Assembly: GCA_027451865.1 (NCBI GenBank) | Contig: DAIDHW010000007.1 | Span: 1-64,000 of the forward strand | Reading direction: 5' to 3' | From: Leptolyngbyaceae cyanobacterium clean351 | GTDB taxonomy: Bacteria > Cyanobacteriota > Cyanobacteriia > DAIDHW01 | DNA: 64,000 nucleotides | Shown: piece after piece, positions 2,056 through 50,740 of the stretch | Numbering within the stretch: position 1 is the stretch's first letter | Layout of the letters: the number at the start of each line of letters is the position of its first letter | Notes under the pieces: generated by a model | Told to the model about the DNA's origin: nothing | Databases searched by the model: none | The model's input: the letters and a program-made list of their open reading frames with translations, nothing else | Translations under genes and position numbers: made by a program

Positions 2056-3435
2056 TCAAAAAGCCAGGTGGGGCGGCAGCAGGTCTTGACGTACTAAGTC
2101 CAGGTAAGTTTCCCGTCGCAGGATCAAACTTGCATCTCCAGCATAAACCAGGACCGCCGCCGGGCGGCAAATCCGGTTGTAGTTAGAAGCCATGCTGTAG
2201 TTGTAGGCTCCAGTCCCAGCGACCACCAAAATGTCGCCGGCGACAGCGGGAGGCAACTGGGCTTGGGCAATCAGCACATCTCCCGATTCGCAGTGCTTGC
2301 CCGCCACGGTCACTACCTGGGTCAAAGGAGCCGAAAGACAGTTAGCCATCAGGGCCCTATAGGTAGACTGGTAGGTGATCGGCCGGGGATTATCTGACAT
2401 GCCTCCGTCTACGCTGAGGTAGGTACGCACCCCAGGCACCTCCTTGCGGCTGCCAACTCGGTAGGCGGTGATACCGGCAGGACCGACTAGAGAACGTCCA
2501 GGCTCGCACAAAAGTTCGGGGAGGGGGATTCCCCGCCGCCCACAAGCCTCGATAACTCCCTGGGCTACCTGTTCTACCCAGGCGCCGATGCTAGGGGGGT
2601 CATCGGTTTCCGTATAGGAAATTCCCAAACCGCCCCCCAAGTTAAGTGCCTCTACGGGCAACCCTGCCTCCCGAGTTGCGACTAGTGCCTGAACCATGAC
2701 CTCTCCCAAGTCTTGGTGGGGCTGGAGTTCAAAGATCTGCGAACCAATGTGGGCGTGCAAGCCGCGGCAGTACAGGTGGGAATGCTGGCGGATAAACTGA
2801 CACACTTCAGATAGCTGCTGCAGGTCAAAGCCAAACTTGCTATCCAGATGACCGGTGCGAATGTATTGATGAGTGTGACACTCGATCCCCGGCGTCAGGC
2901 GCAGAAAAATTGTCACTTGCCTTCCCAGGCTAGCTAGGGTTTCTAGCTCAAGCCAATTGTCGACCACAATCGTCACCCCGGATTCTATACCCTGCTCTAA
3001 CTCCAGGCGGGATTTATTATTACCGTGGAGGTAGATGCGGCCAGGGTCAACCCCGGCAGCCAAGGCGGTGTAGAGTTCCCCTCCCGATACCACATCAACC
3101 CCTAGGCCTTCCCGGGCCACCAAGGCGCATAGGGCCAGACAACTCCAGGCTTTCGAGGCAAACAAAACCTGAGCCGGCCCAGGATAAAAACGCTTCCAGG
3201 CGCTTAGGTACTGACGACAGGCAGTGCGCAGGGTCAGCTCGTCGACAATGTACAGGGGAGACCCAAAACGTTCCACCAAGTCAGGCACATCACACCCCCC
3301 CACTTCCAAGTGGTCCTGGTCGTTACCACGGGCGGACAGGGGTAGAAGTTGTTGATTGGGTGACTCGGCCTCGGGGCTGAAGTAAGCTGGCAAATAGCGG
3401 CGCCCTGAGTTTTCAGTGGAGGCAAGACAGGTCAT
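2056..3435 (-). CDS. lysA: Diaminopimelate decarboxylase
   Basis: PLP enzyme converting meso-diaminopimelate to L-lysine, the last step of lysine synthesis. Visible are the PLP-lysine motif FASKAW (Lys at about residue 95), HIGSQI, the Gly-rich LGGGLG, CEPGRSL, CESGD and the C-terminal AGTGAYNYSMASNYN. The frame is open to 3513, but that start would run into the divergent rimI gene and adds a hydrophobic, non-conserved leader. I therefore chose the internal ATG at 3435 (459 residues), although no strong ribosome binding site precedes it. First gene of a leftward lysA-cdaA-uppS group. Confidence 0.93.
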   Translation of the reverse strand: MTCLASTENSGRRYLPAYFSPEAESPNQQLLPLSARGNDQDHLEVGGCDVPDLVERFGSPLYIVDELTLRTACRQYLSAWKRFYPGPAQVLFASKAWSCLALCALVAREGLGVDVVSGGELYTALAAGVDPGRIYLHGNNKSRLELEQGIESGVTIVVDNWLELETLASLGRQVTIFLRLTPGIECHTHQYIRTGHLDSKFGFDLQQLSEVCQFIRQHSHLYCRGLHAHIGSQIFELQPHQDLGEVMVQALVATREAGLPVEALNLGGGLGISYTETDDPPSIGAWVEQVAQGVIEACGRRGIPLPELLCEPGRSLVGPAGITAYRVGSRKEVPGVRTYLSVDGGMSDNPRPITYQSTYRALMANCLSAPLTQVVTVAGKHCESGDVLIAQAQLPPAVAGDILVVAGTGAYNYSMASNYNRICRPAAVLVYAGDASLILRRETYLDLVRQDLLPPHLAF

Positions 3436-3474
3436 GGCAGGCGTAGGGACATCAAAGATCCAGTATAGGTAGTA

Positions 3475-4083
3475 ATGGGTAACCCAGAAAGCCTCTCCGG
3501 GCCACCAGGTCAATGGCTTCTAACTATCAGTCCCCTCACAGCCGAATTACTCCCAGGGGTAGTAGCCCTGGACGAGGACTGTTTGGGGGGGTTTTGGGCC
3601 GAGGCTGGCTACCAAAGGGAAATGGACAGCCCCAACAGTGACCTGCTAGTGATTACAAGGGGGATGAATCGGGAGGTACTAGGGGTAGGGTGCCTATGGT
3701 CAATCCTCGAGGAGGCTCACATTACCCTTTTGGTCGTGAGGGCTGACCGGCAGCGGCAGGGGTTAGGCCAGGCACTTCTAGGGGTGCTCCTAGGCTGTGC
3801 CTGCCAGCGGGGTTTAGCTTGGGCTACTTTAGAGGTGCGCTGTGGCAATTCCCCTGCCCTGGCTCTGTACCGAAAATTTGGGTTTGGGAGCGTAGGCCGC
3901 CGGCCCCACTACTATCAAAATCCCCAGGAGGACGCTCTAATCCTCTGGCAGCCGAAACTACAGTCCTCAGATTTTTGGGCCTTGCGCCAACTCCTGGTGG
4001 AGGAGGCGAAAAATCGTTTAGCGGTTGGTGGTTGGCAACTAGACCTAGGGAGCTTTGCCAGTCCCTGCCCAGACCAGCCTTAG
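3475..4083 (+). CDS. rimI: GNAT acetyltransferase, RimI-like
   Basis: Acetyl-CoA-dependent N-acetyltransferase, in this family usually acting on the N terminus of ribosomal protein S18. The acetyl-CoA loop RQRQGLGQALL and the following EVRCGNSPALALYRKFGF are typical. The protein is 202 residues, longer than E. coli RimI because of extensions at both ends; the N-terminal ~16 residues look non-conserved, so the true start may be slightly downstream. It is divergent from lysA, an arrangement found in other cyanobacteria. The substrate is inferred only from the family. Confidence 0.8.
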   Translation: MGNPESLSGPPGQWLLTISPLTAELLPGVVALDEDCLGGFWAEAGYQREMDSPNSDLLVITRGMNREVLGVGCLWSILEEAHITLLVVRADRQRQGLGQALLGVLLGCACQRGLAWATLEVRCGNSPALALYRKFGFGSVGRRPHYYQNPQEDALILWQPKLQSSDFWALRQLLVEEAKNRLAVGGWQLDLGSFASPCPDQP

Positions 4084-4310
4084 TAAAGGCTCTAAAATCC
4101 CCCTGGAAGATTGTAGTCGATTGTCAAAATTACCTAGCTGGGAGGCCCGGTTTGTAATATTTGCTGTAACACTCGGAGGATTCTGCGCTACACTAAAGCT
4201 CTAGGGATCCAAGCAACCTCGTCTTTAGAAAAGTCCGGCGGTCGTACCTGTAGCCGCCCCTCGGGTTGCCCCTTGCCTGGTCATTTGGCTAAGCTACACA
4301 CTTCTACGGA

Positions 4311-5642
4311 ATGCACACTAAGCCCACCATTGCCATCGCCCACTTGGGCTGCGAGAAGAATCGTGTCGATACTGAGCACATCCTAGGGCTTCTAGCCGCG
4401 GCGGGTTACCCAGTGGAATCTGACCCTGAAGGCGCAGACTACGTCGTGGTGAACACTTGTAGTTTTATTGAAGATGCCCGGCGGGAATCTGTGCGCACCC
4501 TGGTGGAGTTAGCAGAGGCAAAAAAGCGCATTGTGATTACGGGCTGCTTAGCCCAGCACTTCCAATCCCAGTTATGGGATGAGCTGCCCGAGGCAGTTGC
4601 CCTGGTGGGCACCGGTGACTATCAACACATTGTGGAAGTGATCCAGCGGGCGGAGGCTGGGGAACGGGTGCAGCGGATTTCCCCCCAGCCCACCTATATT
4701 GCTGATGAGCACACCCCCCGCTATCGAACCACCCCTACTGGTTTTGCCTATCTACGGGTGGCTGAAGGTTGCGATTACCGTTGTGCCTTTTGTATTATTC
4801 CCCACCTGCGCGGTCAACAACGCTCTCGCACTATTGAGTCAATTGTTGCTGAAGCCCATCGCCTCGCTGACGAAGGTGTCCAAGAGATCATTCTGGTCTC
4901 CCAGATCACTACCAATTACGGCTTAGATCTTTACGGAGAGCCCCGCTTGGCGCAACTATTGCGAGCTCTGGGGGACGTGCCCGTACCTTGGATCCGCTTC
5001 CACTATGCCTACCCCACTGGTCTGACACCCGCCGTGATCGCTGCGATTCGCGAGACTCCGAATATTCTTCCCTACTTAGATTTGCCCCTGCAGCACTCCC
5101 ACCCAGAGGTCCTGCGGGCCATGAATCGCCCCTGGCAGGCCGATGTCAACGACCGAGTGATTGCCGGGATTCGGGAACTACTACCGGAGGCGGTAATGCG
5201 CACCACCTTGATCGTGGGGTTCCCCGGTGAAACTGAGAAGCACTTTGAACACTTGAAGGAGTTTGTCTGCCGCCATGAGTTCGACCATCTAGGAGTGTTC
5301 ACCTTCTCAGCTGAGGAGCACACTCCTGCCTTCAATCTCCCCGACCCCGTTCCGGCCGTGGTCATGGAACGACGACGACGGGATTTAATGCGCTCTCAAC
5401 AGCCAATCTCTCAACGCAAAAATCAGCAGCAGGTGGGGAAGGTGGTAGACGTGCTCCTTGAGCAGGAAAACCCCCACACTGGGGAGATGGTCGGGCGTTC
5501 AGCTCGCTTCTCCCCGGAAGTAGATGGCCAAGTCTACATTCAAGGGCGTGGAGAGCTAGGTTCTCTGATACAAGTACAGATCACCGCTGCTGACGTGTAC
5601 GACCTGTACGGCCAAGTGGTCCCGAACCTGGCCAGAGTTTGA
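4311..5642 (+). CDS. rimO: Ribosomal protein S12 methylthiotransferase
   Basis: Radical-SAM enzyme that adds a methylthio group to an aspartate of ribosomal protein S12. The N-terminal UPF0004 domain carries three cluster cysteines (about C14, C50, C79). The radical-SAM CxxxCxxC is CDYRCAFC (C154, C158, C161), and a TRAM-like C-terminal domain follows. Length 443 is typical, and the sequence fits RimO better than MiaB. It is followed closely by a DEAD-box helicase gene. The 227 bases upstream hold no gene. Confidence 0.95.
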
Positions 5643-5686
5643 TTGAGTTCGCTTCGCACAAAACACAGAACAATTTGAGGATACCT

Positions 5687-7081
5687 ATGACCATTTCGTT
5701 TAGCAGTTTAGGACTTTCAGAGTCGCTCGTTCAACATCTAGAGGGTCTGGGTTTTGCCAGCCCTACGGCCATTCAGGCCCAGGCTATCCCCCCTCTCTTA
5801 GAGGGGAAAGATGTGGTGGGCCAGGCCCAGACTGGCACTGGTAAAACCGCTGCCTTTGCTCTGCCGATGCTAGAAAGGCTCGACCCTAGCCTGCCCCAGG
5901 TGCAAGCTCTAGTGCTCACCCCCACCCGGGAGTTAGCCATGCAAGTGCACCAGGCAATTCGTAGCTTCAAAAGCGATGATCGTCTGCGGGTCCTGGCTAT
6001 CTACGGTGGTCAATCCATGGAGCGACAGATTCTCACCCTGAAACGGGGGGTGCAAATAGTTGTTGGGACCCCTGGCCGGGTTCTCGACCTTCTCAGTCGC
6101 GGCTCCCTGATGCTAGACGCAGTCAAGTGGCTGGTCCTAGATGAAGCGGATGAAATGTTGAATATGGGGTTTATTGAGGATGTGGAGAAAATCCTCTACT
6201 TTGCTCCCCGACAACGGCAAACCGCCTTCTTCTCCGCTACCATGCCCCTGTCGATCCGGAAGTTAGTCAACCGGTTCTTGCAAAGCCCAGTCATGGTGAC
6301 GGTAGAGCAGCCCAAGGCTGCCCCCCAACGCATTGACCAAATTGCCTACCTCGTACCCCGGGGTTGGACTAAAGCTCGGGCCCTGCAGCCGATTCTGGAG
6401 TTGGAAGACCCAGAATCAGCCCTAGTGTTTGTCCGTACCCGCCGGGCAGCGGCCGAGTTGACTAGCCAACTACAAGGAGCAGGTCACAGCGTGGATGAGT
6501 TCCATGGCGACCTGAGTCAAAGTCAACGGGAGCGGTTGCTTAACCGGTTTCGGCAACGGCAAGTGCGCTGGGTAGTAGCGACTGATATTGCTGCCCGGGG
6601 TCTGCACGTAGATGACCTCACCCACGTGATCAACTACGACCTACCCGATAGTGTAGAAAATTATGTCCACCGCATCGGCCGGACTGGCCGAGCTGGCAAG
6701 ACTGGGGTGGCGATCTCCTTGATTCAACCCCTCGAGCGGCGTAAGCTTAGAGATATTGAGAACCATGTTCGCCAAAAACTAGAGATTTGCACTATTCCCA
6801 CCCGGGCTCAAGTGGAGGCTCGTTACCTAGAGCGCTTAGAAAATCAGGTGCGTGAAGCTATGAGTGGTGAACGGGTAGCCTGTTTCCTACCAATTGTTGC
6901 TCGCCTAAGTGCTGAGTATGAATCCCATGCCTTGGCGGCTGCCGCCCTGCAAATGGTCTACGACCGCACTCGCCCCCCGGCTAACACCACTGACTACGGA
7001 GATAATCTCGAAGACACAGAGGCTCGTCCCACTCCTAAGCCCAAGTTAGTTAAACAGTCTCGGCACTCCCTGCGAGATTAG
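5687..7081 (+). CDS. DEAD-box RNA helicase (DeaD/CrhR-like)
   Basis: ATP-dependent RNA unwinding, probably in ribosome assembly or mRNA turnover. All helicase motifs are visible: Q-motif region near the start, AQTGTGKT, PTRELA, TPGRVLDL, DEAD, SAT, ARGLHVDDLTHVINYDLP and HRIGRTGRAG, with a C-terminal extension of about 100 residues. I chose the ATG at 5687, preceded by TTTGAGGA, over a TTG at 5639 that overlaps the rimO stop. Cyanobacterial relatives such as CrhR respond to cold and redox state; whether this one does cannot be read here. Likely cotranscribed with rimO. Confidence 0.92.
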   Translation: MTISFSSLGLSESLVQHLEGLGFASPTAIQAQAIPPLLEGKDVVGQAQTGTGKTAAFALPMLERLDPSLPQVQALVLTPTRELAMQVHQAIRSFKSDDRLRVLAIYGGQSMERQILTLKRGVQIVVGTPGRVLDLLSRGSLMLDAVKWLVLDEADEMLNMGFIEDVEKILYFAPRQRQTAFFSATMPLSIRKLVNRFLQSPVMVTVEQPKAAPQRIDQIAYLVPRGWTKARALQPILELEDPESALVFVRTRRAAAELTSQLQGAGHSVDEFHGDLSQSQRERLLNRFRQRQVRWVVATDIAARGLHVDDLTHVINYDLPDSVENYVHRIGRTGRAGKTGVAISLIQPLERRKLRDIENHVRQKLEICTIPTRAQVEARYLERLENQVREAMSGERVACFLPIVARLSAEYESHALAAAALQMVYDRTRPPANTTDYGDNLEDTEARPTPKPKLVKQSRHSLRD

Positions 7082-41828: not shown

Positions 41829-42971
41829 ATGGCTTCCTCCCCCCCGACCAAAAAATCCCCTAAGGGAACGGTAGTAGTCCGCAACTTCCAAGGTAGACTA
41901 CGCCTGGTCTGGTCCTTTGGGGGTAGGCGTTATTGTCTGTCAACGGGGTTTCCCGACGGCAAGGTCAACCGTCTGGCAGCGGAGGCCAAGGCGCGCCAGA
42001 TTGAGCTGGATATGATTACGGGTAACTTCAACCCGACTCTGGAGAAGTACGATCCCCGCCGTTCCCTCAAAGATAAACCCGTAGAGCTGGCAGCGATTCC
42101 TTTGTTGGAACGGTTTATTCTTCACAAACAAAAAGAAGTCTACCACCGCACCCTAGAAAAGTACCGGACGGCTCTCGAGTACCTACGGCAGTTTCTAGCT
42201 CAGGACTCCCGACGCGTCCTAGACGTGAAAAGTGCCGAACGCCTAGTGGATTATCTACGTCCCCGCTTGGCTCCCGTCACCCTCAAGGAGCGTTTGACCA
42301 TCTACGCGGCTGGCTGGCGGTGGGGGGTGGAGCAGGGGTTGGTGACAAGTAACCCTTGGGAAGGTTTGCCCGGGAGAGTCAAGGTACCCCCTAAACAGAT
42401 GCCCCGGCCCTTCACCCAAGGGGAGGTAGAGGCAATTCTCCAGGGGTTTCGCGAGCACCCCCGTTACTGTCACTACAGTGATTTTGTCAGTTTCCTCTTT
42501 GGTACCGGTTGCCGGACTGGAGAGGCGATTGGCCTGCGCTGGGGACATCTGCACCCGGATTGCTCCGGGGTCTGGTTTGGTGAGAGTATTTCCCGGGGGG
42601 TGAGAAAGGCTACCAAAACTAATCGAGCCCGGTCAGTGACTTTACCTAAAAGCCTGCAAGTCTTGCTGCTGGCCCGACGGCCCCAAGACCCCCACCCAGA
42701 CGACCTAGTATTCACTGCTGCCTGGGGTGGGATTATCAATGACCACAACTTTCGCGACCGGGTTTGGAAACCCGTACTGCAACTAGCAGGGGTGGATTAC
42801 CGCAAACCCTACACAACCCGCCACACTCTTATTAGCCATGCCCTAGCCATGGGTATGGACCCGGTCACCCTAGCGCAGTTAGCCGGCCATGACGTGGAGA
42901 CTCTTTACCAAAACTACGCCGGTTCGGTAAGTTCTCGGCCGCGGTTACCGGATATGTTGTCAGGAGGATAA
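41829..42971 (+). CDS. Tyrosine recombinase/integrase
   Basis: A 380-residue phage-type integrase. The N-terminal ~90 residues hold an arm-binding-like part (VWSFGGRRYCLSTGF), then a SAM-like core-binding domain (about 95-180). The catalytic domain has Arg229 in GTGCRTGEAIGLRW, Lys near 263, Arg331 in YTTRHTLISHA (the box II His is Tyr328), His354 in LAGHDVETLY and the nucleophile Tyr, probably 363 in QNYAG. The set looks active. It flanks cysC and begins an island of genes of unknown function and CRISPR. A broken copy of its 5' end lies at 44344-44640. Confidence 0.9.
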   Translation: MASSPPTKKSPKGTVVVRNFQGRLRLVWSFGGRRYCLSTGFPDGKVNRLAAEAKARQIELDMITGNFNPTLEKYDPRRSLKDKPVELAAIPLLERFILHKQKEVYHRTLEKYRTALEYLRQFLAQDSRRVLDVKSAERLVDYLRPRLAPVTLKERLTIYAAGWRWGVEQGLVTSNPWEGLPGRVKVPPKQMPRPFTQGEVEAILQGFREHPRYCHYSDFVSFLFGTGCRTGEAIGLRWGHLHPDCSGVWFGESISRGVRKATKTNRARSVTLPKSLQVLLLARRPQDPHPDDLVFTAAWGGIINDHNFRDRVWKPVLQLAGVDYRKPYTTRHTLISHALAMGMDPVTLAQLAGHDVETLYQNYAGSVSSRPRLPDMLSGG

Positions 42972-44343: not shown

Positions 44344-44640
44344 ACTCCTAGGCAGTGGCTATGCTGGCTGAAAAGACCGGCTCCCGCCCATGGCCCCCTC
44401 CTCCCCGCCCAAGAAATCCCCCAGGAGAATGGTAGTAGTCCACAACATTAGACTGCGCTTATTCTGGTGGTCCTTTGGGGGCAGGCGTTATTGTCTGTCG
44501 ACTGGGTTTGCTACGGCAAGGCCAACCGTCTGGCAGCGGAGGCCAAGGCGCGTCAGCTTCAACCCGACTCTGGAGAAGTACGACCACCGCCGTTCCCGCA
44601 AAGATAAACCCGTAGAGCTGGCGGCGATTCCTTTATTGGA
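44344..44640 (+). pseudogene. Decayed copy of the integrase promoter and 5' end
   Basis: Aligns with 41773-42109. It shares the upstream words CTAGGCAGT, GGCTGAAAAGACC and CTCCCGCCCATGG, and the coding words TTTGGGGG.AGGCGTTATTG, CAACCGTCTGGCAGCGGAGG, AACCCGACTCTGGAGAAGTACGA and AAAGATAAACCCGTAGAGCTGGC. It has point changes and small indels that break the frame, including loss of about 26 bases before AACCCGACTCTGG. Homology stops abruptly at about 44640, where the 3' end of the next leftward gene begins. It is a remnant of a second related integrase gene or a partial duplication. Confidence 0.85.
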
Positions 44641-45133
44641 TCTGGAAACAGCTCCCCCGGTAATTGAGGTTGTGGTAGCCAGGATAAATCATCGGAATCA
44701 CGGTGGGGATGGGCTGGTTGGGGTTAGCTCCAGGTTGGTGGGGATCAACAGGCTGGACGAAACACTGACCAGAACTAGGTATGGCAGAATCGTAGACCCC
44801 AATGATGAAGGTCTTGTATCGTTGTGCCACCTGAGGGGTGACGGTTAGGGTGTAGGCACAGTTGGCACCATTCTGAGTCACGGTGCCTGGGAATAGGCGG
44901 TTGGACTGGTTATCGACACCAAAGACCGTGATCGTGTTGCAAGACCGACCCGGGAATATGGTGCCGGTGACGGTCGTATATACTGTCCGCTTATACGGAG
45001 GGATAGTAGGAGTGTAGCGGTAGCCAGGAGTATATGTGGGGGCAAGGGATGGGTTAACTTGCGCCAGGGAGGGGGAGGCTAAGGTGATGGCACCAAGGCT
45101 AGTGAGGCAAAATGTGGTCAGTAGTAGCTTCAT
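44633..45133 (-). CDS. Hypothetical secreted protein
   Basis: A 166-residue protein I cannot name. MKLLLTTFCLTSLGAITLASPSLA is a clear Sec signal peptide; this is why I start at 45133 although the frame is open to 45295, across a relic CRISPR repeat. The mature part is Tyr/Thr/Pro-rich at first, then SCNTITVFGVDNQSNRLF and TFIIGVYDSA, with four cysteines that could pair in the periplasm. Its stop codon lies inside the integrase remnant (overlap 44633-44640), so the extreme C terminus may have been created by that insertion. Confidence 0.6.
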   Translation of the reverse strand: MKLLLTTFCLTSLGAITLASPSLAQVNPSLAPTYTPGYRYTPTIPPYKRTVYTTVTGTIFPGRSCNTITVFGVDNQSNRLFPGTVTQNGANCAYTLTVTPQVAQRYKTFIIGVYDSAIPSSGQCFVQPVDPHQPGANPNQPIPTVIPMIYPGYHNLNYRGSCFQIQ

Positions 45134-45162: not shown

Positions 45163-45202
45163 GTTTATTACCATTCGACTTATATCCCCAGCGAGTGGGG
45201 AT
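45163..45202. repeat. Relic CRISPR repeat, distant
   Basis: A degenerate copy of the array repeat containing the intact hairpin half CCCCAGCGAGTGGGGA. Its 5' half reads GTTT, an extra ATTA, then CCATTCGACTTATAT. It lies about 1.4 kb left of the main array, in the upstream region of a secreted-protein gene. Too long an identical core (17 bases) to be chance. Confidence 0.8.
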
Positions 45203-46258: not shown

Positions 46259-46294
46259 CATGCCATTCAATTGATGTCGCCAGCGAGTGGGGAC
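46259..46294. repeat. Relic CRISPR repeat near the array
   Basis: CCATTCAATTGATGTC, then GCCAGCGAGTGGGGAC: the array repeat with changed first bases (CATG for GTTT) and one C-to-G change that weakens the hairpin. It is 318 bases from the first array repeat, far more than one spacer. It marks the ageing, distal end of the array. Confidence 0.85.
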
Positions 46295-46611
46295 TACATA
46301 CTCAATCGTTTTCGCCTTGGAGCCTGTAACCCCCGTCTACGAGTATGAGTACATATGTGTACAGCACACCGTATACCGAGAGCGTTAACACGACCGACTT
46401 GTCATCACGTACCGTTTGGCCTAGCACGCGGTGTCTGATACCCCACGTAGCTATTTTGGGTCAAACAACTGCGCCACTCTTGGAGGCTATAGACCGTGTC
46501 TGGATCGGTATACCAACTTCCCGGTTTGTAAGGCATATCGCCTCCTCCATCGATTTACAGTCCCATTGTAGGACGTTTGCATCATCTCCGACAATCTGCC
46601 GATGTTTCCAT
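46295..46611. other. Non-repetitive insert at distal end of array
   Basis: 317 bases between a relic repeat and the first array repeat. Composition is noticeably less GC-rich than the window. No gene, repeat remnant or mobile-element end was recognised. Its length is close to what four or five spacer-repeat units would occupy, but no internal repeat is visible. Just before the array GTTTCCATTC appears once at 46604-46613, followed by a second CCATTC at 46616, suggesting a small duplication in the terminal repeat. Confidence 0.5.
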
Positions 46612-48458
46612 TCGTCCATTCAATTGATGTCCCCAGCGAGTGGGGACGCGGACCTGGCCCTTGCCGGGAAGGTGGCCGATTTCTTGGGTTTCCATTCAAT
46701 TGATGTCCCCAGCGAGTGGGGACCAGGAAGGTATCCAGGCTGGCTCCCGCGTTCACCCAAGTTTCCATTCAATTGATGTCCCCAGCGAGTGGGGACTCCG
46801 TTGTTCTCCGGATACTACCGGGAACTTTTGAGGTTACGTTTCCATTCAATTGATGTCCCCAGCGAGTGGGGACATAGTAGAGCCCAAAACTGGCTCGGTC
46901 AAAAAAGAGATTGTTTCCATTCAATTGATGTCCCCAGCGAGTGGGGACGTTCTCTCCTTTCGAGGAGAAATCTCCCCCTTCAAAAGTTTCCATTCAATTG
47001 ATGTCCCCAGCGAGTGGGGACATGGAAAGTTCGACAGCAAAGGACGCTGGTACCCCAGGTTTCCATTCAATTGATGTCCCCAGCGAGTGGGGACCTAGCC
47101 CTGGACGAACTAATCAAGGAAATCAGTGGCCAAGTTTCCATTCAATTGATGTCCCCAGCGAGTGGGGACAAGGTAAACTCAAACCCGCTTCCGGGGCGGG
47201 TCCCCCGTTTCCATTCAATTGATGTCCCCAGCGAGTGGGGACCTTAAGCAAATCAATGCGCAGTACCACTTGGCCAGGCAGAAAATGTTTCCATTCAATT
47301 GATGTCCCCAGCGAGTGGGGACAATCAGGTTCTGGTTGGCGGCGTAAGCTGTGCTGTCCCCCTGGTTTCCATTCAATTGATGTCCCCAGCGAGTGGGGAC
47401 AGGGGATAACAGACGAGCCCAAGACGGGGTTAGTCAAGAGTTTCCATTCAATTGATGTCCCCAGCGAGTGGGGACGGGCTACGGGGTGACCCGGTTTCCG
47501 CAATTCCCCAAACGGTTTCCATTCAATTGATGTCCCCAGCGAGTGGGGACCTGAACGTTACCTCGCATTGAAGAACCGTCAAGTTGACCCTGGTTTCCAT
47601 TCAATTGATGTCCCCAGCGAGTGGGGACACTCAAGGGCCGTACTATTTACGTGGTCTTCGACCAGGATTGTTTCCATTCAATTGATGTCCCCAGCGAGTG
47701 GGGACCACCCCCCACTAAGGAGAACCAATGGAAGCCCTAACTCAACAGTTTCCATTCAATTGATGTCCCCAGCGAGTGGGGACCAAAAAGGCAATTGGCA
47801 GTATTTGGGTATCTGCCCAGATGTTTCCATTCAATTGATGTCCCCAGCGAGTGGGGACAATACCGTCTAACGCTAAAGCGGCTTATCTTGAGCCGGTTTC
47901 CATTCAATTGATGTCCCCAGCGAGTGGGGACACAGTAACGGCTAGCGGCTGGTACTAAGAGTGGTACTAAGTTTCCATTCAATTGATGTCCCCAGCGAGT
48001 GGGGACCGCTTGAGAGCCACCCGAGATGCTAGGCCAAATCCCTGTTTCCATTCAATTGATGTCCCCAGCGAGTGGGGACCGTGGAATAACTGCGGTAGCC
48101 ATAATAATATTTCGATCTAGTTTCCATTCAATTGATGTCCCCAGCGAGTGGGGACTGCTCTGCATGTCGCAGAGGAGTACGGGGTAGAGGTCGCGTTTCC
48201 ATTCAATTGATGTCCCCAGCGAGTGGGGACATGGTAGTAGACCTTGCCCCAGAAAAGGTCTGCCTCGTAAGTTTCCATTCAATTGATGTCCCCAGCGAGT
48301 GGGGACAAGACGGAGCCTTCCGTCTGGGACCAGCCACGGACCTCCAAGTTTCCATTCAATTGATGTCCCCAGCGAGTGGGGACGTGGAAGAAAGGGGCGG
48401 GATGCCTGTACTGGGCAAACATGTTTCCATTCAATTGATGTCCCCAGCGAGTGGGGAC
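46612..48458 (-). CRISPR. CRISPR array, 25 repeats of 36 bp, 24 spacers
   Basis: The repeat on the plus strand starts GTTTCCATTC and ends in the hairpin CCCCAGCGAGTGGGG plus AC. Copies begin at 46612 (5' end degenerate), 46688, 46761, 46838, 46913, 46986, 47059, 47134, 47207, 47287, 47365, 47440, 47515, 47593, 47670, 47748, 47823, 47896, 47971, 48044, 48120, 48195, 48271, 48348 and 48423. From 46688 on they look identical. Spacers are 37-44 bases and all different. The complementary repeat ends in GAATGGAAAC, a typical crRNA 5' handle, so transcription runs leftward, with new spacers at the right. Spacers of this length with such repeats usually belong to type III or I-D systems, but no cas gene is present in the window. 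Confidence 0.97.
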
Positions 48459-48720
48459 CCTACCCCTATTAGAGCACCATCCAGACTGGATTACAAGTCC
48501 TGTTTGCGACAGGTCGGCAAAGTGACCAGGGCGGCGGGGGAATTTTCCGTGGCCAAAGGGCCAGAACCCTTACCAGAGGCCAAGTCGAGGGGCTCAACGA
48601 GTTTGCTGGCATTGGGGGGATTTTGGCTACCTGTCGCGGATCCACTAATGTTGATAGCAAATGCAGAAGTTTTATTATTAGCTTACAACATGAAATATAT
48701 TTCTTTAGTCAGCCCCCATA
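48459..48720 (-). promoter_or_regulatory. Probable CRISPR leader
   Basis: Sequence to the right of the last perfect repeat, upstream in the direction of array transcription. It contains a strongly AT-rich block at 48668-48712, read leftward as AAAGAAATATATTTCATG, that could hold the promoter about 210 bases from the first repeat. GCGACAGGT occurs in inverted orientation at 48506-48514 and 48629-48637, and CCTGT/ACAGG forms a small hairpin at 48499-48513. Assignment rests on array polarity and composition. Confidence 0.6.
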
Positions 48721-48956
48721 TCCGCGGATAGAGAGGCATGACCAGACCGCCTACAATCAGACCGAGCTTGACCTGGCTATGGTTTGGACCATTCTGTAGA
48801 TTGAGGCGCCGGCATTACAGTCATCCCCGACCAGATGCAATGGGCTTGCCACTAAGGACCATAAAATCACCATAATCACGGGAGGAAAAAGACCCACCCC
48901 TGAAGAAATCGCCTTTTATGAACCCCTAGTGTAAATCAGCGGCGCCGCGCCCGTGG
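48721..48956. other. Possible decayed coding end right of the leader
   Basis: No intact gene. A plus-strand tail ending at TAA 48932-48934 reads HKITIITGGKRPTPEEIAFY then EPLV, which looks like a real protein C terminus. Upstream, coding-like text ITVIPDQMQWACH is in another frame and closed by a stop, suggesting frameshift decay. The family is not recognised. Confidence 0.3.
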
Positions 48957-49172
48957 CTAATCTTTACTAGTAGTCAAGGCAGTAAGTAATAAGTAAATCA
49001 CCCCAGCCGCCAGAGCGACCTGCCAAGCGTGGGGCAGGAGGGTCCAGCGCACCCAGTAACTAAGGCTCTGGAGGATCCAAAAAGCCGAGTTTGCCCCCCA
49101 ACTGAGAGCCTTGAGGATAATATAAATCACCGCTACAAGGCCGATGGCGCGCAGGAAAGGGTTTCTGGACAT
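48957..49172 (-). CDS. Small two-helix membrane protein
   Basis: A 71-residue protein starting MSRNPFLRAIGLVAVIYIIL, with hydrophobic segments at about 8-25 and 47-66 joined by SWGANSAFWILQSLSYWVRW, and a short charged tail SKD. I chose the ATG at 49172; the frame opens farther up to 49229, but the extra 19 residues are polar. The family is not recognised. It lies between the CRISPR leader and the divergent CARF-HEPN gene; a functional link is only positional. Confidence 0.6.
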   Translation of the reverse strand: MSRNPFLRAIGLVAVIYIILKALSWGANSAFWILQSLSYWVRWTLLPHAWQVALAAGVIYLLLTALTTSKD

Positions 49173-49324
49173 AAAAAACTTGCCTAGACTAGGGACTCTG
49201 TACCGGCCCTCCCAAGATACCATGGTCATACCACCATTGGACGACTCTAGTTAATCAATGCTATTAATTCCCAGAGGTCTGCGCCGAGGTTTTTCACCCT
49301 TACTTACCCCCAAAGGCATTTCCC

Positions 49325-50740
49325 ATGAATACTTGGCTGGTAACTACTGGCAGCAGTGACGTCAGATTAACCACTGACCAGCTATGGGACTCCTGGGGTG
49401 AGTGCCAGTTTAAGCCTGCCAAGGTGCGCAATCTTTACAGTGTCCCCTCCCGGGCCCTGGGAATGGTCTATCAAAAACACCCAGACCAGGTGTGGCCGTA
49501 CCTAAGTTTTCCCCTCCTGAAGGAGTTCGCCAGGCAGCTCCAAGCTGATGGAGTTAACCTCAGCCAAATTATCTTCTTCACCACCGACCAGCAGGCCATC
49601 TTTAGTGAACAGGAGCGTGATCAGGGAGAAAAATGCCCCTACTGGAAAGACACCTGCACCCTAGAGCCTGTTTTTCGCCGCCTCTTTGAACAGCTGTACC
49701 CCGGAGCGGTCGTAGTCCCCAAGCTGATCGCCCCCCAAGACCCCCAGGCCGGGGTAGATGATTGGAATGCCATGCTTGACTTAGTAGCAGACCAACTCCG
49801 GGAGGTCACGGCCTCAGGGATTGTCTACGTCAGCCACCAGGCCGGCACCCCCGCCATCTCCTCAGCTTTACAGTTTCGCACCCTGGCAAAGTTTGGCCGG
49901 CAAGTCCAGTTCCTGATAGGCAATGAGTACAGCTCAAGCAAAACTCGTCTAATCAACAGTCCTGCCTACCTGCGCAGTCTCCAGCTGCAAGAAGCTAAGG
50001 CGATGCTCAGACGTCACGACTACACTGGTGTGCGGGACCTCCTCGGCATTGGTTCTCAAGAGGAAATAGCGGCCCCCCTAGAGGCAGCGATTCAGTGGAA
50101 CTTTGCCAACTTTGATCAGTTTGCCCAAAAGATCGGCCGTCAACCCGAATGGTGGCGCATTGGCTATGAAGCCGCCTACTTGGCTACCGTGCGGCTTGAA
50201 CAGGGCAGCCCTACCGAAGCATTCTTCCACGGTTTTCGGGCAGTGGAAGGGTTAATGTTGACCTGGGCGAGTGAGAGATTTGCCGCCCACATTGAAGAGC
50301 CCAAGCGCTCCTGTCCATTTCTGAAGCAATCGATTCTTGAGGAGTTGCCTAACTATCTTCGGGCGCAAGGGGATAAGCGTGATGAGCGTAGGCAAAGGCT
50401 AAGGGAGTCTCTCCTGGGTGATGGCAGAATCGAACTATCTAGCTTCCAACTCTACGAGCTCCTGCGCGAAGGTCAGCCAGAGGGCCAGGAGCTATGTTCA
50501 GACCTGGAAACCTTCGAAAATAGGATTGCTCCTCGACGCAACCTTCTGTTCCACCGTCTGCGGGGATTGGAGACCAAAAAACTCCTTGAAGAATGGAAAG
50601 TAAAGACTGAGCAGGAGTGGAGAGACCGCCTGTTAAGGCTACTGAATTTTATTAGTGGGGAGAACTTTAGCTCCCTAGAAGCTGCCAGTCACCTACCCGC
50701 GGTACACGCCCAGCTAGGCCAGATGCTTGAGTACCTGTAG
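49325..50740 (+). CDS. CARF-HEPN CRISPR ancillary ribonuclease (Csm6/Csx1-like)
   Basis: A 471-residue protein. The N terminus MNTWLVTTGSSDVRLTTDQL and the later GIVYVSHQAGTPAISSALQF (about 166-185) match the two conserved blocks of CARF domains, which bind cyclic oligoadenylates made by Cas10. The C-terminal helical half carries RNLLFH (R405 to H410), the Rx4H catalytic motif of HEPN ribonucleases. Family knowledge predicts collateral RNA cleavage when a type III complex recognises a target. It is the only CRISPR-associated gene in the window, 0.9 kb right of the array. The exact subfamily is uncertain; it does not look like a canonical Csm6 in its first 150 residues. Confidence 0.78.
   Translation: MNTWLVTTGSSDVRLTTDQLWDSWGECQFKPAKVRNLYSVPSRALGMVYQKHPDQVWPYLSFPLLKEFARQLQADGVNLSQIIFFTTDQQAIFSEQERDQGEKCPYWKDTCTLEPVFRRLFEQLYPGAVVVPKLIAPQDPQAGVDDWNAMLDLVADQLREVTASGIVYVSHQAGTPAISSALQFRTLAKFGRQVQFLIGNEYSSSKTRLINSPAYLRSLQLQEAKAMLRRHDYTGVRDLLGIGSQEEIAAPLEAAIQWNFANFDQFAQKIGRQPEWWRIGYEAAYLATVRLEQGSPTEAFFHGFRAVEGLMLTWASERFAAHIEEPKRSCPFLKQSILEELPNYLRAQGDKRDERRQRLRESLLGDGRIELSSFQLYELLREGQPEGQELCSDLETFENRIAPRRNLLFHRLRGLETKKLLEEWKVKTEQEWRDRLLRLLNFISGENFSSLEAASHLPAVHAQLGQMLEYL

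Follow-up and report, generated by a model that had tools for sequence, protein, structure and literature searches.

The CRISPR array and the adjacent Csx1-type gene described here, which lie on a contig lacking any cas gene, very probably belong, as a satellite, to the type III-B system of the same genome, with both the array and the Csx1-type RNase served in trans. The window, by which we mean the whole 64,000-nucleotide stretch analysed, comprises bases 1–64000 of an 82.9-kb contig, the remainder of which was also examined; the assembly is 2.48 Mb in 48 contigs and is 98.8% complete. An earlier note on this DNA had offered two explanations for an array with a CARF-HEPN protein and no cas genes, namely a type III system elsewhere acting in trans, or a different source of cyclic nucleotide. 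The first is borne out by a III-B locus on another contig, C1, that has the same repeat, a homologous leader and Cas10 proteins with intact cyclase motifs, while the second finds no support, since two cyclase-competent Cas10 proteins are present. The note had also taken a complete type III locus just outside this contig, carrying the identical repeat, as evidence that would speak against its reading; such a locus does exist, though its place is on C1.

Results

The array and its homologs

The array was found where the earlier note had placed it, with 25 copies of the repeat, of which 24 are perfect 36-mers and the left-most, terminal one has three changed end bases (Table 1). The repeat pattern gave 71 hits in the genome compared to none for a control in which the same pattern was read backwards genome-wide. 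The repeat RNA (the GTCCCCACTCGCTGGGGACATCAATTGAATGGAAAC strand) forms a 7-bp hairpin followed by a single-stranded 17-nt 3′ tail, a fold that beats 199 of 200 shuffles. Given a conserved leader on the right and decayed repeats on the left, crRNAs probably come from the minus strand, with transcription running leftward; the leader side is intact, and the trailer side is decaying. Searches of the spacers against a phage collection matched no target, so the activity of the array is putative, and two spacer pieces had no exact match in IMG/VR. Scanned for promoters, the region of the leader and csx1 scored no better than chance.

Table 1. Positions of the array, the Csx1-type gene and related features in the window and on contig C1
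Feature	Position	Strand	Description
CRISPR array	Window 46612..48458	(-)	25 repeats of 36 nt, crRNA-strand GTCCCCACTCGCTGGGGACATCAATTGAATGGAAAC; 24 spacers of 37-44 nt
CRISPR leader of window array	Window 48459..48683	(-)	Matches leaders of main III-B array and third array
Csx1-type gene	Window 49325..50740	(+)	471 aa, intact; CARF at about residues 1-215, HEPN at about 216-471, R405-N406-x3-H410
Decayed small trailer ORF (WYTDP family)	Window 46308..46518	(-)	Split by in-frame TGA and frame change
Isolated decayed repeat beyond trailer end	Window 46259..46294	(-)	1 mismatch in 32-nt core, 4 in whole 36-mer
Second isolated repeat, more decayed	Window, about 45167..45202	(-)	In register in family D2
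Main III-B array	C1:1031532-1033831		31 copies beside cas10-cmr modules; window repeat with 0 mismatches in 32-nt core
Intact WYTDP trailer ORF of main array	C1:1031141-1031371		Beyond trailer end
Third array	C1:488706-489649		13 perfect copies of window repeat; related leader

The leader of the window array aligns with that of the main III-B array at 83% identity over 225 aligned columns (E 8e-62), and with that of the third array at 73% over 248 nt. Additionally, the small WYTDP ORF occurs at only two sites in the genome, beyond the trailer ends of the window array, where it is broken, and of the main array, where it is intact. From these alignments the window, main (and third) arrays are judged to be homologous, beyond mere repeat likeness, and because leader and trailer ORF are common to the window and main arrays, we read the former as a homologous copy with its cas partners in trans. 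The arrays have no spacers in common beyond two chance-size 12-mers (window array against third array), so the copies are not recent: their separation is old and the spacers are each array's own. Close to the third array (C1:484000–494000) no csx1 was recognised, and its trailer end also carries decayed repeats.

The contig around the array

The lack of cas genes that the earlier note had seen over at least 16 kb to the left and 13 kb to the right holds, and extends to the entire 82.9-kb contig, that is, to the 46.6 kb left of the array and the roughly 32 kb beyond csx1 on the right. When 147 Cas10, Cmr and Cas1 sequences were compared with the window by tblastn, no credible remnant came up, and we reject a hidden relic of cmr or cas10 close to the array; the best match in the window (E 0.006, 23 residues) falls inside an integrase gene.

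A tyrosine-family integrase gene (PF00589, E 4.7e-14) lies at window positions 41829–42971, and 2.56 kb downstream, at 44351–44845, its 5′ part recurs as an incomplete, decayed copy with DNA blocks that are 84–94% identical. On account of this gene and its broken copy, we suggest that the DNA immediately to the left of the array may have been a site of mobile-element activity. A minus-strand ORF of 90 aa (48960–49229) lies in the interval from leader to csx1; its product looks membrane-spanning by eye and has only a sub-threshold EXPERA match.

Type III-B modules elsewhere in the genome

The earlier note had called for a search of the genome for cas10, cas6 and the same repeat; this found cas10 twice, a single Cas6 of PF10040, and the repeat at two further places. 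The two Cas10 proteins, in a genome with three cas1 genes, belong to two type III-B (Cas10/Cmr) modules at C1:1020–1048 kb. Module A consists of csx1, cmr6, cmr5, cmr4, cmr3 and cas10, with csx1 at the module end, and module B of cmr6, two non-cas genes, cmr5, cmr4, cmr3 and cas10; between them are the 31-repeat array, a cas1 and a second csx1-like (CARF-HEPN) gene. Thus both modules have Cas10, Cmr3, Cmr4, Cmr5 and Cmr6, and both Cas10 sequences retain an intact GGDD cyclase motif. By eye, the Cas10 of module A begins directly at the Cmr2 N-terminal domain and that of module B is without HD residues, for which reason signalling is probably the main output of both proteins. The III-B locus has a cas1 and no recognised cas6. 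The sole PF10040 Cas6 of the genome belongs to a type I locus (C1:772.5 kb); for PF01881 there was no match.

Several features of the modules are recorded here in their own right. The two non-cas genes of module B lie between cmr5 and the long cmr6 on the minus strand (C1:1037000–1056999, local 2258–4081 and 4078–6390), and encode a 607-residue coiled-coil-like protein and a 770-residue protein whose AAA/helicase signals are weak and whose start looks RelE-like by eye; neither had a convincing PADLOC or Pfam match. The Cmr6 proteins are unusually long, at 584 aa in module A (L037 3840–5594) and 630 aa in module B (C1:1037000–1056999, local 182–2074), and that of module B also matches Cmr1 profiles. 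Their length and these Cmr1 matches suggest that they may be Cmr6-Cmr1 fusions. A search for the Csx3 ring nuclease gave no matches, yet the control genomes were equally silent, and the search is hence uninformative.

Relatives and origin of the csx1-type gene

We compared the stretch around the gene with those around 69 relatives in other cyanobacterial genomes. In every case the stretch examined around the relative includes one cmr gene or more, with cmr6 directly upstream, on the same strand and within 400 bp, in 65 of them; among the 70 family members compared, the window gene alone lacks Cmr neighbours. In a maximum-likelihood tree it forms a long single branch inside the family, sister neither to the csx1 of module A nor to the csx1-like gene near module B, which rules out a recent duplication of the main-locus csx1 as its source. 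The window protein is 47% identical to the module A csx1 product over the best-aligned part. No relatives were found in viral contigs, and there is thus no sign that the protein is phage-borne. In several relatives (loci L084, L062, L063, L070, L087 and L093) a second CARF-HEPN gene lies close by in one III-B locus, and in some of these there is a shorter CARF of another type.

These comparisons leave two routes by which the gene may have reached its present position: it may have arrived together with the array, or have stayed in place when a third operon was lost. The latter leads to the possible, though somewhat doubtful, reading that array and csx1 are together the leftover of a third III-B locus that lost its cas10-cmr operon by deletion, with the array maybe idle and Csx1 a spare effector. 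The constant company of cmr genes in the relatives, with cmr6 so often directly upstream, argues for it, as do the separate long branch of the window gene and the decayed repeats and broken trailer ORF left of the array; a lone gene without Cmr neighbours may be a holdover in the course of being lost. However, the tblastn search found no trace of cmr or cas10 in the window, and the leader, 24 repeats and the CARF and HEPN residues are all perfectly kept or intact, which argues for continued use. Moreover, a deleted operon is mostly a matter of origin, and this first half of the reading is compatible with function in trans.

The CARF-HEPN protein

The Rx4H motif that the earlier note had assigned to R405–H410 is located exactly there in the intact ORF, as R405-N406-L-L-F-H410, and R405, N406 and H410 are invariant in 39 aligned sequences (the window protein and 38 relatives). 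The note had further proposed that the N-terminal 150 or so residues are unlike canonical Csm6 or Csx1 and that the protein might found a new subfamily, and had allowed that an HMM search could place it in a non-CARF family. Instead, the protein is placed in the PADLOC family PDLC01795 (CARF1-CARF_HEPN), which matches over its full length (residues 1–469, E 9.5e-116), as it also matches all 38 aligned relatives; PDLC01508 (Csx1) matches too (E 4.6e-90). The NCBIfam Csm6 equivalog model scores only 16.9 bits against a cut-off of 150, and we therefore do not consider the protein a classical III-A Csm6.

No Pfam model matches the protein, and sequence searches of the PDB with the single sequence and with a 39-row profile found nothing, which made a fold search necessary. 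This used a confident AlphaFold2 model (pLDDT 88.8, pTM 0.71), with Foldseek among the fold comparisons. As a whole, the model matches complete Csm6 proteins, such as that of E. italicus (PDB ID: 6tug; Z 16.4, 370 residues, rmsd 7.1). Residues 1–215 match the CARF domains of Can2, Card1, Cad1 and Sis0811 (Z 10–12, rmsd 2.5–3.4), and for residues 210–469 the counterpart is the HEPN part of Csm6 from S. epidermidis (Z 15.4, rmsd 3.9). The N-terminus is accordingly predicted to be a CARF domain, Rossmann-like in fold and diverged in sequence. With an existing profile that fits end to end, in the relatives as in the window protein, and with CARF and HEPN folds predicted, neither the non-canonical N-terminus nor the new subfamily is supported.

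The CARF domain of characterised Csx1/Csm6 proteins binds cyclic oligoadenylate, and Csx1 is usually activated by cA4. The best Foldseek hits of the window protein are cA6-bound Csm6 proteins, and its family profile is named Csx1; the activating ligand would more likely be cA4 than cA6.

A precedent for a different role is found in Synechocystis, where SyCsm6, a second CARF protein of the system and similar to Csm6 effectors, acted as a ring nuclease and had no RNase activity in vitro (PMC9676260). By analogy, the window protein might be a ring nuclease or a catalytically dead regulator and not an effector. We consider this unlikely, as loss of the RNase function would normally permit the HEPN site to drift, whereas R405, N406 and H410 are invariant across the alignment; besides, the CARF domain could have ring-nuclease activity in a protein that is also an effector.

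Probable service in trans by the main III-B locus

If the window region is a satellite of the III-B system, as we favour, the array would be transcribed leftward from its leader, and its crRNAs, having the same repeat as those of the main array, could enter the Cmr complexes that the main locus encodes. When such a complex meets a matching transcript, Cas10 would make cyclic oligoadenylate through its GGDD cyclase, and this diffusible signal would be bound by the CARF domain of the window protein, presumably activating it. The HEPN dimer would then cut RNA unguided, alongside the two main-locus paralogs. Since leader and repeat match, the Cas1 of the main locus could also add spacers to the window array in trans. 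Maturation of the crRNAs would fall either to RNase E, a host enzyme, or to the genome's one Cas6, which belongs to the type I locus. Behler et al. are said to have reported in 2018 that RNase E matures the crRNAs of the Synechocystis III-Bv system, and maturation of this kind would fit a III-B locus without cas6.

A further proposal is that the detached Csx1 and array form an independently regulated module, with a ligand or RNA preference that differs from those of the two main-locus paralogs. We think this unlikely; if true, one Cas10 signal would be split among three effectors at different genomic places. It is extremely unlikely that the CARF-HEPN protein works independently of CRISPR, in response to a cyclic nucleotide that some other enzyme makes (e.g. 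a CBASS-type cyclase), for though the gene is physically apart from every cas operon, it starts less than 900 bp from a type III array, its family has Cmr genes in every one of the 69 sampled loci, and the genome has two Cas10 proteins competent as cyclases.

Discussion

The window protein is like the Csx1/Csm6 effectors (PDLC01795, PDLC01508) in its full-length profile match, its CARF and HEPN folds and its RNxxxH active site, and like the cyanobacterial relatives in III-B operons in its GSSD and SHQAGTPA motifs. It differs from these effectors in that its gene is outside any cmr operon and on a long branch, and its nearest relatives are no more than about 45% identical to it. In Synechocystis, a Csx1 is a cA4-activated, cytosine-specific RNase (PMC9676260).

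The main locus shares with cyanobacterial III-B systems, including the Synechocystis CRISPR3 III-Bv, its Cas10-Cmr3-Cmr4-Cmr5-Cmr6 modules, an adjacent CARF-HEPN gene, and a cas1 without a recognised cas6. In contrast to these, this genome has two adjacent modules and two distant arrays with the same repeat, and its only Cas6 (PF10040) is in the type I locus.

Distant arrays sharing the repeat of a remote cas locus have been described, and for III-B arrays it matters little whether cas genes are near, those with identical repeats being updated equally (PMC12814883). The window array is like them in its identical consensus repeat, homologous leader, normal length and distance from cas genes, but differs in having a linked Csx1-type gene; we found no description of a Csx1-type gene linked to a distant array in the literature searched. 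Type III loci have also been proposed to activate effectors encoded elsewhere in the genome (PMC11229360).

The sharing of type III machinery or signal between loci is thus already described, and we regard the window locus as an ordinary satellite belonging to a known system, in which the detached position of csx1 is mildly unusual. A practical caution follows for the reading of single stretches of DNA: that there are no cas genes nearby in one window tells little about the genome. For the biology of type III systems, this is one genome in which an effector gene and an array are uncoupled from the effector operon, an uncoupling that fits the proposal that cyclic oligoadenylate signalling is common to several loci.
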